From the NCBI GenBank assembly GCA_025356635.1, contig JANXRY010000073.1, positions 1 through 53,994 of the forward strand: a stretch of 53,994 bases of DNA, read 5' to 3'. Positions 35,641 through 44,155 of the stretch are shown piece after piece. The notes under the pieces are model-generated. The model was not told where the DNA came from, searched no databases, and saw only the letters and a program-made list of their open reading frames with translations. Within the stretch, counting starts at the first letter, position 1. Every line of letters starts with the position of its first letter. The DNA comes from Gammaproteobacteria bacterium (GTDB taxonomy: Bacteria; Pseudomonadota; Gammaproteobacteria; Xanthomonadales; Xanthomonadaceae). Both the position numbers and the translations under genes were made by a program.

Positions 35641-36348
35641 ATGTCTCAGACTAGCAGCGGCAACGCCGAAATCATCCTCGCCAGCCTGTCCGACGAGGAA
35701 CTGGTCGAACAGATGTTCGACGACCTCTACGACGGGCTCGCGGATGAAATCAGGGAAGCGACCCAGATCCTGCTCGACCGCGGCTGGGAAGCCAAGCGGG
35801 TCCTGGACGACGCGCTCGTCGGTGGCATGAATATCGTCGGAGTGGATTTCCGCGACGGCATCCTGTTCGTGCCCGAGGTCTTGCTGGCGGCAAACGCCAT
35901 GAAGGCCGGAATGGCCATCCTCAAGCCGATCCTCTCTGCGGCCGGCGCCGAACCGGTCGGCAAGATGGTGATCGGCACGGTCAAGGGCGACATCCATGAC
36001 ATCGGCAAGAACCTGGTCGGGATGATGATGGAGGGCGCGGGTTTCGAGGTGATCGACTTGGGGATCAATACCGACGCGGACAAGTATATTGCGGCGCTGC
36101 GGCTGCATCGCCCGGATATCCTCGGAATGTCGGCGCTGCTGACCACAACCATGCCGTACATGAAAGTCGTGATCGACGCGATAAAAGCTCAAGGCATGCG
36201 CGATGACTTTATCGTGCTGGTCGGCGGTGCCCCGCTCAACGAGGAATTCGGCAGAGCCGTTGGCGCCAACGCGTATTGCCGCGATGCAGCCACGGCCGTC
36301 GAGACCGCCAAGCGCCTGGTACTGGAACGACGCGCGGCACGCGCCTGA
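35641..36348 (+). CDS. Corrinoid (cobalamin-binding) methyl-transfer protein
   Basis: Shuttles a methyl group on its cobalamin between methyltransferases. The 235-residue protein has the helical cap domain (SDEELVEQMFDDLYDG, VPEVLLAANAMKAGM) and a B12-binding Rossmann domain with the signature D117-x-H119-x-x-G122 in GDIHDIGKNLVGMM. His119 is the expected lower cobalt ligand, and VIDLGINTDADKYI with SALLTTTMPYMK completes the fold. It closely resembles MtbC/MtmC/MttC-type corrinoid proteins. It is the first gene of the operon that includes two MttB-family enzymes. Confidence 0.95.
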   Translation: MSQTSSGNAEIILASLSDEELVEQMFDDLYDGLADEIREATQILLDRGWEAKRVLDDALVGGMNIVGVDFRDGILFVPEVLLAANAMKAGMAILKPILSAAGAEPVGKMVIGTVKGDIHDIGKNLVGMMMEGAGFEVIDLGINTDADKYIAALRLHRPDILGMSALLTTTMPYMKVVIDAIKAQGMRDDFIVLVGGAPLNEEFGRAVGANAYCRDAATAVETAKRLVLERRAARA

Positions 36349-36357
36349 TCACGGCGC

Positions 36358-36960
36358 ATGGATACGCCGGTTCTCGTCATCGCCTGTGGCGCCCTGGCCA
36401 GGGAATTGCTCGCCGTGCGCGACTTGAACCAGTGGCCGCATATGGCGATCCAGTGCCTGCCGGCGGAATTGCACAATCGCCCGGAACGAATCCCGCCGCT
36501 ACTGCGCTCGACTATCGAGAAGGCTCGCGGCCGACACGCGCATATCTTCGTCGCCTATGCCGACTGCGGCACCGGTGGTGGTATCGACGATGTGTTGCGC
36601 GACTACGGCATCGAGCGACTTCCGGGCGCGCATTGCTACGAATTCTTCGCCGGGTCAGCAGTGTTCAGCGCCATGGCCGAGGCCGAGCCTGGCACTTTCT
36701 ATCTGACCGACTTCCTGGTGCGCCACTTCGACCGCCTGGTGCGGCGCGGACTCGGGCTGGATCGCCACCCGCAATTGCTGGCGAGTTATTTCGGCAACTA
36801 CACGCGAGTGGTTTTTCTTGACCAGAGCAACGATCCTGATCTGGATCTCGCCGCGCGTGGCCATGCCGAGTTTCTGGGGCTGGCCTATCAGCGCCATCAC
36901 ACCGGATTCGCTCCAGTCAATGCGGCCTTGTCGGAGAAAATCATCCAATGGCGAAGTTGA
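36358..36960 (+). CDS. DUF1638 domain protein
   Basis: The 200-residue protein matches DUF1638: VIACGALARELLAVRD at the N-terminus, MAIQCLPAELHNRPERIPPLLR and FVAYADCGTGGGIDDVL in the middle. Conserved Cys and Asp residues around ADCGTG suggest metal or cofactor binding. Function is unknown. DUF1638 genes often accompany corrinoid methyltransferase genes, so a supporting role in corrinoid or methyl-group handling is inferred. It begins 9 bases after the corrinoid protein gene and overlaps the next gene by 13 bases. Confidence 0.88.
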   Translation: MDTPVLVIACGALARELLAVRDLNQWPHMAIQCLPAELHNRPERIPPLLRSTIEKARGRHAHIFVAYADCGTGGGIDDVLRDYGIERLPGAHCYEFFAGSAVFSAMAEAEPGTFYLTDFLVRHFDRLVRRGLGLDRHPQLLASYFGNYTRVVFLDQSNDPDLDLAARGHAEFLGLAYQRHHTGFAPVNAALSEKIIQWRS

Positions 36961-42601: not shown

Positions 42602-42631
42602 AGTCATTTCGCAACTCAAGGAAGCCACAGC

Positions 42632-44155
42632 ATGCGCCCGACCCTGAATATTCTCAGCGACGAGATGATCGACCGGGTCCTGGTCGAGGCCAAGCGAATC
42701 ATGGCCGAGGTCGGCATGGAGATTCGCGGCCCCGGGATGAAACAGCGACTGCTCGACCATGGCCTCAAAACTGATGCCAGTGGCGTTCGCGTGCTGTTTC
42801 CCGGCGATGTCGTTGACCGGGCCATCGCCACAGCGCCGAAGTCTTTCATCTTGTACAACCGCGACGGCCTGCCGCATGCCGAGTTGGGCGGCAACAACGT
42901 ACATTTCGTACCCGGTTCGAGTGGGCTGCAGATCCTTGATCACCGTAGCGGCGAACACCGGCTGACCAACTCCACCGATTTCGTTGAATACGCGCGCCTT
43001 TGCGACGGGCTCGAGCACATCGCCTACCTGGCAACCGCGTTTTCCACCAATAAGGATATCGAGCCGCAGGTTTCCGACGCCTGGCGCCTGTACATGAGCT
43101 TGACCAATTCCAAGAAGCCGGTGGTGTCGGGCGCCTTCAGTGAACATGGCACGCCACGCATGATCGAAATGATGCAGTTGTTCCGCCACGATCGCGCCGA
43201 ACTGGTGGCCAAGCCGATGTCCATCTTCACCATTACCGCTACCGGCAATTTCCGCTTCAGCGAAGACTCCTGTCAGAACCTGATTGATTGCGTCGAGGCA
43301 GGCATCCCGGTCGAAATAGTTCCGGTTACCCTGATGGGCCTGATCGCGCCGGTGACTTTGTTCGGTGCGCTGGTCTTCCACCTCGTCGATACGTTGACCG
43401 GCATCACGATGACCCAGATCGTGAAACCTGGAGCACCGGTATTGCTGGGCGGCGCGCCCGCAACCTTCCACATGAAGTCGGCAAGTTCACCGATGGCCGC
43501 GATCGAGGCGCAGCAATTGAATGTCGCCTACGTTGCGGTCGCCAAGAAGCTGCAGTTACCGACGCAGGCCTACATGGCATTGTCGGACAGCAAGTTCCTT
43601 GATGCCCAGGCCGGCGCGGAAACCTTCGGCAGCGCGCTACTTGCAGCGCTCGCCGGGGTCAATTCGGTTTCCGGCCCCGGCATGCTCGATTTCGTGTTGA
43701 CCTTCAGCCTACCCAAGCTGGTGTTCGACAACGAAGTCTGTGGCCAATGCCTGCATTTCATCCGCGAAATCCGCGTGCTGGATGATTTTCCGACGATGGA
43801 TCTGGTCACTCATCTGCGTGCACACGATCACCTCATAACCGCGCCGCATACGCTCAAGCACTGGCCGCAGGAACTGTATCTGACACAGCCCGTATGGGAT
43901 CGCGAAAACCGCGAGACCTGGCTGAAAACAGGTGCGAAGGACCTCAACGCCCGCGCCAGCGAGGAAGTCGAGCGACGGCTTGCCGCCTACCAGCCCTTTG
44001 AGACGGATGCCGCCGTCGATGCCGAGATGCGGCGATTGGTGATCTCGGGTATGCAGGAACAGACTGAATTGCCCATTTTGCCGGCGCCACCCGAAGCGCA
44101 TGAGCCTGACGCAGTGCAGGGACGGCGCGGGCGTGCCGGACGTCGTCGCGGCTAG
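42632..44155 (+). CDS. MttB-family methyltransferase 2 (non-pyrrolysine)
   Basis: The 507-residue protein is a second, diverged MttB-family member: [27 protein letters not shown] (quoted in part), [78 protein letters not shown], and [17 protein letters not shown]. No in-frame stop interrupts it. The C-terminus is an Arg/Gly tail ([11 protein letters not shown]), like the MeTr and activator proteins. Two enzymes could accept different methylated amines or act in sequence on one substrate (inference). It is the last gene of the corrinoid operon. Confidence 0.93.

Follow-up and report, generated by a model that had tools for sequence, protein, structure and literature searches.

A predicted operon for corrinoid-dependent methyl transfer lies at positions 35641-44155 of contig JANXRY010000073.1 (assembly GCA_025356635.1), part of a metagenome-derived genome of a gammaproteobacterium in the family Xanthomonadaceae; "the window" below means the whole stretch of 53,994 nucleotides analysed. 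Eight open reading frames (ORFs) follow one another on the plus strand, all with ATG starts and none with internal stops; the intergenic spacings are, in gene order, 9, -13, -4, 11, 13, 18, and 30 bases. The initial annotation, made from the letters alone, had named these eight genes in this order and between these limits, and a profile scan agrees: each ORF carries at least one Pfam domain above the gathering score. It had also described tight packing with three overlaps; no gap exceeds 30 bases, but the overlaps number two, a third appearing only if the start of the RACo gene is moved to the upstream ATG at 38074. Chance assembly of the set is excluded because the same eight genes recur in identical order on three other metagenome-assembled genome (MAG) contigs (L073, L081, and L082), with 55-85% protein identity.

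The first gene (35641-36348) encodes a 235-residue corrinoid (B12-binding) protein of the MtgC/MtbC type, with Pfam scores of 90.2 bits for B12-binding and 64 bits for B12-binding_2; its top NCBIfam model is MtgC_2, at 205 bits and thus under the cut-off of 370, and it contains DIHDIG, an instance of the DxHxxG motif that we take to be associated with corrinoid proteins. Next come the two products that had been set down as being of unknown function. Both are present, but their families can be named: a DUF1638 protein (36358-36960; PF07796, 97.9 bits) and a 106-residue member of PF13769, "Virulence_fact" (36948-37268; 70.2 bits against a curated cut-off of 25), proposed here to be an accessory of the corrinoid system. 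The fourth gene (37265-38167; Pterin_bind, 104 bits) would encode an MtgD/MtgA-like methyltetrahydrofolate:corrinoid methyltransferase, an assignment supported by the NCBIfam model PRK07535 (358 bits, above the cut-off of 259). It is followed by a 668-residue, RACo/RamA-type ATP-dependent corrinoid reductive activase with an N-terminal 2Fe-2S domain (38179-40185; RACo_C_ter 288, Raco_middle 159, RACo_linker 97, and Fer2 28 bits in Pfam) and by a divergent, MetF2-like relative of methylenetetrahydrofolate reductase (MTHFR) of 289 residues (40199-41068), which matches PF02219 at 37.5 bits (cut-off 24) and TIGR00676 at 56.7 bits, far under that model's cut-off of 293.7. The last two genes encode PF06253 methyltransferases of the MttB family, MttB-1 (41087-42601; 597 bits) and MttB-2 (42632-44155; 267 bits), whose assignment also draws on a tree and on pocket residues; both score under the cut-off of the NCBIfam model for the pyrrolysine enzyme. 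None of the eight genes carries the homocysteine-binding module PF02574, and a promoter and terminator scan returned no more matches than in shuffled sequence.

Insertion site and distribution among relatives

How did this operon come to sit where it does? In two genomes of the same genus, G016 (81% complete) and G017, the genes that flank it are neighbors (stretches L005 and L006), which places the insertion at approximately 35575-44225, about 8.6 kb. The G016 stretch matches the window as far as the stop codon of the first flanking gene and resumes from about base 44225; there, the upstream (window 33769-35574) and downstream (window 44246-45016) neighbors are 81% and 90% identical to those of the window and lie about 50 bases apart, measured between the aligned parts. 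In G017, the same two genes are likewise adjacent (71% and 69% identity). Neither 501-base junction stretch, each searched on its own, contains direct or inverted repeats.

MttB genes are rare among close relatives. A search of 61 genomes found them in two, the genome under study and one from another family of the same order; none of the 26 other genomes of the genus and none of the 10 from elsewhere in the family has one. At a threshold of E <= 1e-30, MttB-1-like matches occur in 20 of 398 genomes of the order: this one and 19 others, all from a single family (f7). In the tree, the window MttB-1 does not join f7 and instead falls into a five-row group with a sequence from L095 and Steroidobacteraceae-type sequences (support 95); MttB-2 sits at a fork without a resolved placement. 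We infer from the empty site, the MttB-free genomes of the genus, and the placement of MttB-1 that horizontal acquisition is more likely than loss in every sampled relative.

The L095 record (CAMAXE010000034.1) is titled Klebsiella pneumoniae and holds a partial operon of this type, with DUF1638, PF13769, MttB-1, and MttB-2 genes; its sequences cluster with uncultured Gammaproteobacteria, and the species label is probably wrong.

An operon confined to one sampled member of its genus, in a genome made of 126 contigs with an estimated contamination of 2.65%, could in principle be an artefact of assembly or binning. This explanation is highly improbable: the operon lies inside one contig, its flanking genes have counterparts with 69-90% protein identity that adjoin each other in both G016 and G017, and its G+C fraction (0.621) matches that of the remaining window (0.624). 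Farther downstream, at window 45094-46410, two successive ORFs resemble methionine sulfoxide reductases B and A when the sequence is read by eye.

MttB-1 and MttB-2

A quick maximum-likelihood tree, with 85 rows and rooted for drawing only, was used to place the two methyltransferases; from it, MttB-1 sequences shorter than 400 residues (L072, L115, and L116), the L093 pieces, an L076 fragment, and duplicate copies of the window proteins were omitted. MttB-1 belongs, on a branch of its own, to a 38-row clade (support 100) that also contains MtgB (PDB 9yce) and the protein of PDB entry 4yyc. MttB-2 lies outside this clade, in a 28-row clade (support 100) whose stem measures 3.17 changes per column; the deep branching order is unsure because long branches meet there, as the tree program warned.

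The proteins also differ at the pocket positions named for the pyrrolysine-containing MttB (PMC9842639). All 28 MttB-2 rows have Ser-Ser in place of Gly110-Thr111, Leu in place of pyrrolysine (Pyl) 334, and Val in place of Met249; at Tyr364, 25 have Ser and three have Ala. The 19 MttB-1 rows have Gly-Gly at 110-111, Phe at 249, and His at 364, a residue shared with MtgB, while position 334 is Thr in 12 and Val in seven. The initial annotation had called both proteins non-pyrrolysine, and rightly so: both frames run open without a stop, and with Leu or Thr/Val at the Pyl position, a pyrrolysine enzyme is rejected for either. The MttB-2 clade is an uncharacterized branch with pocket residues of its own and, since the clades are far apart and the pocket positions differ, MttB-1 and MttB-2 likely use two different substrates.

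Where else does MttB-2 occur? A pattern-based scan of genome contigs, not exhaustive, found 24 loci, a lower bound; their MttB-2 proteins are 69-83% identical to that of the window and come from MAGs of uncultured Gammaproteobacteria, of Chloroflexota, and of the Myxococcota type. Among 398 Pseudomonadota genomes, the top match besides the window is 29% identical, and matches listed from 72,556 plasmid records also reach up to 29%; relatives of MttB-1, by contrast, reach up to 57% identity on alphaproteobacterial plasmids, where FAD-dependent oxidoreductase genes lie nearby in five of five stretches and sarcosine oxidase in one of the five. The full eight-gene order accompanies MttB-2 in three loci (those of L073, L081, and L082) and a partial set in nine more, including seven-gene sets in L090, L077, and L080, and some contigs are cut; the other 12 show none of the remaining seven genes within the stretch available, some of these stretches being short.

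These loci bear on a simpler arrangement, in which both MttBs act on one substrate, such as glycine betaine, and one of them is a redundant or structural partner. The two genes stand side by side in 11 of the 24 MttB-2 loci (MttB-1 being a fragment in one and cut by the contig end in another), which speaks for this arrangement. However, half of the loci, some of them short, show MttB-2 with none of the other operon genes, and L077 has MttB-2 with six of them and no MttB-1 in its 21 kb; together with the very long branches and the differing pocket positions, this makes a single shared substrate unlikely. Two substrates are the preferred reading, and L077 also hints at the fate of the methyl group: a formate-tetrahydrofolate ligase gene (L077:11536-13167) directly downstream of MttB-2 fits methyl oxidation via folate.

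Clustering of the 24 loci and a scan of selected neighbors revealed no constant partner of MttB-2 outside the operon genes. In two Myxococcota-type loci (L083:8408-12991 and L084:422-6244), MttB-2 is flanked by a lysine-2,3-aminomutase-like protein and a class III aminotransferase, and in L084 a GcvT-like protein follows the trio. Because of this pairing, a trimethyllysine-like compound or a beta-amino-acid betaine is a possible substrate of MttB-2. The L083 aminomutase-like protein scores 176 bits against an NCBIfam cut-off of 525 and has no Pfam match, and the L084 copy was assigned by clustering. A KamA-like partner was sought in the genome under study and rejected, the sole match being a frame of 311 residues with 30% identity; the hint may therefore not apply there. 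In L074 (1345-2694) and L075 (2668-4017), a protein of the short-chain-fatty-acid-transporter family (Pfam, for the L075 copy) is encoded directly upstream of MTHFR, MttB-1, and MttB-2, and could possibly transport the substrate.

The DUF1638 and PF13769 proteins

DUF1638 has been met in corrinoid biochemistry before: in Phaeobacter, such a protein is required for B12-dependent methionine synthesis, and Price et al. (2018; PMC5764234) made no specific proposal for what it does. Seven residues, C10, C33, H39, C70, H92, C93, and H123, are invariant in nine aligned sequences. In the 398 Pseudomonadota genomes, DUF1638 is found in 57, namely the 41 with an MttB match (E <= 1e-20) and 16 more.

PF13769 tracks MttB even more closely, being present in 41 of the same 398 genomes, exactly the 41 with MttB. 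These span 29 genera, and the hypergeometric probability of the overlap, with kinship ignored, is 7e-57. Thirty PF13769 loci of the 41 were compared, and all 30 have a gene for MTHFR, MTHFR-C, or methyltetrahydrofolate methyltransferase within 1.5 kb. On the Terrarubrum flagellatum plasmid unnamed3 (L132:9001-11283), PF13769 forms the N-terminal part of a 760-residue RACo protein, the single instance of this fusion seen. An Azoarcus plasmid has the order corrinoid protein, DUF1638, PF13769, MTHFR-C, MTHFR, methyltransferase, RACo, beside annotated glycine betaine ABC transporter genes.

What would PF13769 do? It is probably a helper of corrinoid methyl-transfer chemistry, to judge by the company it keeps, and the "virulence factor" label is then misleading. 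Literature searches found no paper that joins the family to corrinoid enzymes, and the word "virulence" does not occur in the main text of the most closely related study (PMC12478193). In family f7, the link is one-way: of 39 genomes, 12 have PF13769 and every one of these has MttB too, but eight of the 20 genomes with MttB lack a PF13769 match (five less than 90% complete, three at least 90%), which tells against an obligate link; the 19 f7 genomes scored as MttB-free were so scored with a query and threshold that could miss a genome with MttB-2 only. The family must have other roles too because it also matches in Bacillus subtilis, used as a control.

Structural models do not suggest a mechanism for either protein because matches in the PDB are lacking. 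The AlphaFold model of DUF1638 has a pLDDT (predicted local distance difference test) score of 84; for PF13769, a single one of the five models is confident (80), the others scoring 44-53. Neither model has a PDB fold match at E <= 0.001, and the best sequence matches in the PDB have E values of 0.7 (DUF1638) and 0.12 (PF13769).

A bolder combination, to which we give somewhat less than even odds, is that PF13769 in Pseudomonadota is a dedicated MttB accessory acting with RACo and that MttB-2 is a new subfamily with a novel substrate, one outside the glycine betaine, proline betaine, carnitine, gamma-butyrobetaine, and (phospho)choline types.

Role of the operon and its known counterparts

Is the operon there to make methionine or to consume methylated amines? 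A mainly anabolic operon, a split methionine synthase or methyl-donor route to which the MttBs are side inputs, has precedents. In Phaeobacter inhibens, corrinoid, pterin-binding, RamA-like, and DUF1638 proteins of a split methionine synthase have linked phenotypes, the DUF1638 and RamA-like proteins being needed for methionine synthesis (Price et al., 2018; PMC5764234); in Ruegeria, mutants revealed a dual function of MtgC and MtgD, which are needed both for glycine betaine use and for methionine synthesis (Mausz et al., 2025; PMC12478193). However, with PF02574 absent from the operon, the genome's sole match to this domain lies elsewhere, in a MetH-length open frame of 1267 residues; PF02574 matches occur in 35 of the 37 genomes searched. 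On this ground, split methionine synthesis was dismissed as the main role; the cell can probably do without the operon for it, and a mainly anabolic operon is quite improbable.

A catabolic role is most likely because, besides the MetH-length gene, the genome has surplus amine-demethylation genes. It contains six GCV_T matches, as opposed to two in each of nine same-genus genomes tested (the genus comparison of demethylation genes consists of these counts), and the four surplus GcvT-domain genes are spread over three contigs. The first (C125; L117:5276-13950) encodes a permease, SoxB (654 bits, cut-off 529), SoxA (1066 bits, under the cut-off of 1164), and a protein with a DMGDH-like domain make-up. 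The second (C35; L118) combines part of a glutamine-synthetase-like gene with genes for an aldehyde and an iron alcohol dehydrogenase, for a permease, and for a DMGDH-like protein that ends at the contig edge. The third (C99; L119:79-3998) encodes a GcvT-like protein, a GbcA-like Rieske oxygenase (246.6 bits, cut-off 670), PurU (329 bits, cut-off 286), and a regulator with a BetI-type domain. This Rieske contig also bears drug-transporter-like, ABC-transporter-like, and topoisomerase-like genes (labels given by eye); the first two are neighbors in all four genus loci compared, with the topoisomerase-like gene next in three of them.

We therefore consider it probable (about 0.8) that the operon came by lateral transfer and serves catabolism, as a corrinoid-dependent demethylation system of the same type as the aerobic MtgBCD one. 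Homology supports this general role well, and the substrates are putative; the catalytic steps and the direction of flow are likewise deduced, as is acquisition rather than loss. MttB-1 and MttB-2 would each demethylate a quaternary or tertiary amine and load the methyl group onto the Co(I) form of the corrinoid protein, from which the methyltetrahydrofolate methyltransferase would pass it to tetrahydrofolate; the MTHFR-like protein would then oxidize methyltetrahydrofolate to methylenetetrahydrofolate. RACo, with its Fe-S domain and helped by DUF1638 and probably PF13769, would re-reduce cobalt accidentally oxidized to Co(II), a repair that should matter in an aerobic cell. The substrate of MttB-1 would most likely be glycine betaine or a close analog, the resulting dimethylglycine and sarcosine passing to enzymes encoded at other sites of the genome, the DMGDH-like proteins and sarcosine oxidase; MttB-2 would most likely serve a second, different methylated amine via the same corrinoid protein. 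The initial annotation had proposed that methyl groups are oxidized through the folate pool; this is still the best reading, favored by the sarcosine oxidase, DMGDH-like, PurU, GbcA-like, and MetH-length genes.

Several points weigh against this scheme. MttB-1 is no more than moderately related to MtgB, and its clade may use another substrate than glycine betaine; the GbcA-like Rieske gene could already perform the glycine betaine step, although its score falls well short of the cut-off. The reaction of the MTHFR-like protein can only be deduced because that protein is divergent. The operon contains no transporter gene (betaine transporters were not searched for in the genome), and placement was checked for one of the three demethylation contigs, the Rieske contig.

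Three features lay beyond the sight of the initial annotation: the insertion without a counterpart in the other genomes of the genus that were searched, the deep MttB-2 subfamily, and the tracking of MttB by PF13769 across the phylum sample. If the scheme holds, lateral transfer has carried B12-dependent amine catabolism into a genus in which the other members sampled do not have it; the conserved MttB-2 branch becomes a target for the discovery of new substrates; and a gene present in about a tenth of the Pseudomonadota genomes sampled trades its misleading "virulence factor" label for a part in corrinoid methyl transfer that can be tested.

How do these parts compare with characterized enzymes? 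MttB-1 groups with MtgB (PDB 9yce; 2qne) and, as noted, has His at the Tyr364 position, but differs at other positions compared, having for instance Thr instead of Leu at the pyrrolysine position and Phe instead of Leu at 249; MttB-2 falls outside the MtgB clade altogether. Both are of the PF06253 type, like the pyrrolysine trimethylamine methyltransferase MttB (PDB 7xcl; PMC9842639), to which residues 5-470 of MttB-2 align with an E value of 1.3e-47, but neither window frame has an in-frame amber codon. The split methionine synthase of P. inhibens shares the corrinoid, pterin-binding, RamA-like, and DUF1638 proteins with the window, whose operon differs from it in lacking a homocysteine module, the MetH-length gene lying elsewhere (PMC5764234).

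The closest counterpart is the aerobic glycine betaine system of Ruegeria pomeroyi DSS-3, which has the same kinds of protein: methyltransferases of the PF06253 and pterin-binding types, a corrinoid protein that stands free, a RamA-like activase, a DUF1638 protein, and an extra MetF. There, MetF2 is proposed to carry out the oxidizing step, and is the most differentially synthesized protein on three N-osmolytes, while RamA and DUF1638 are listed as reactivation proteins (PMC12478193). The mtgBCD genes occur in aerobic Alpha-, Gamma-, and Deltaproteobacteria, frequently co-located and in some cases in operons, as in other marine bacteria, and 108 of 156 MtgBCD genomes lack MetH, which is thus a usual but not a universal absence (PMC12478193). 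The earlier placement of such gene sets mostly in anaerobes and some alphaproteobacteria was accordingly incomplete, and finding one here is not surprising as such. Two differences from Ruegeria stand out: (i) in the window, the parts form one operon with MttBs from two clades, whereas the Ruegeria genes do not make up a single operon; and (ii) the window operon has no MtgE, and a separate MetH-length gene (G000:C78) is present, whereas Ruegeria mtgC and mtgD also serve methionine synthesis. By its gene content, then, the set is of a known kind, that of the aerobic MtgBCD/MetF2 system of Ruegeria (PMC12478193), in a compact arrangement.

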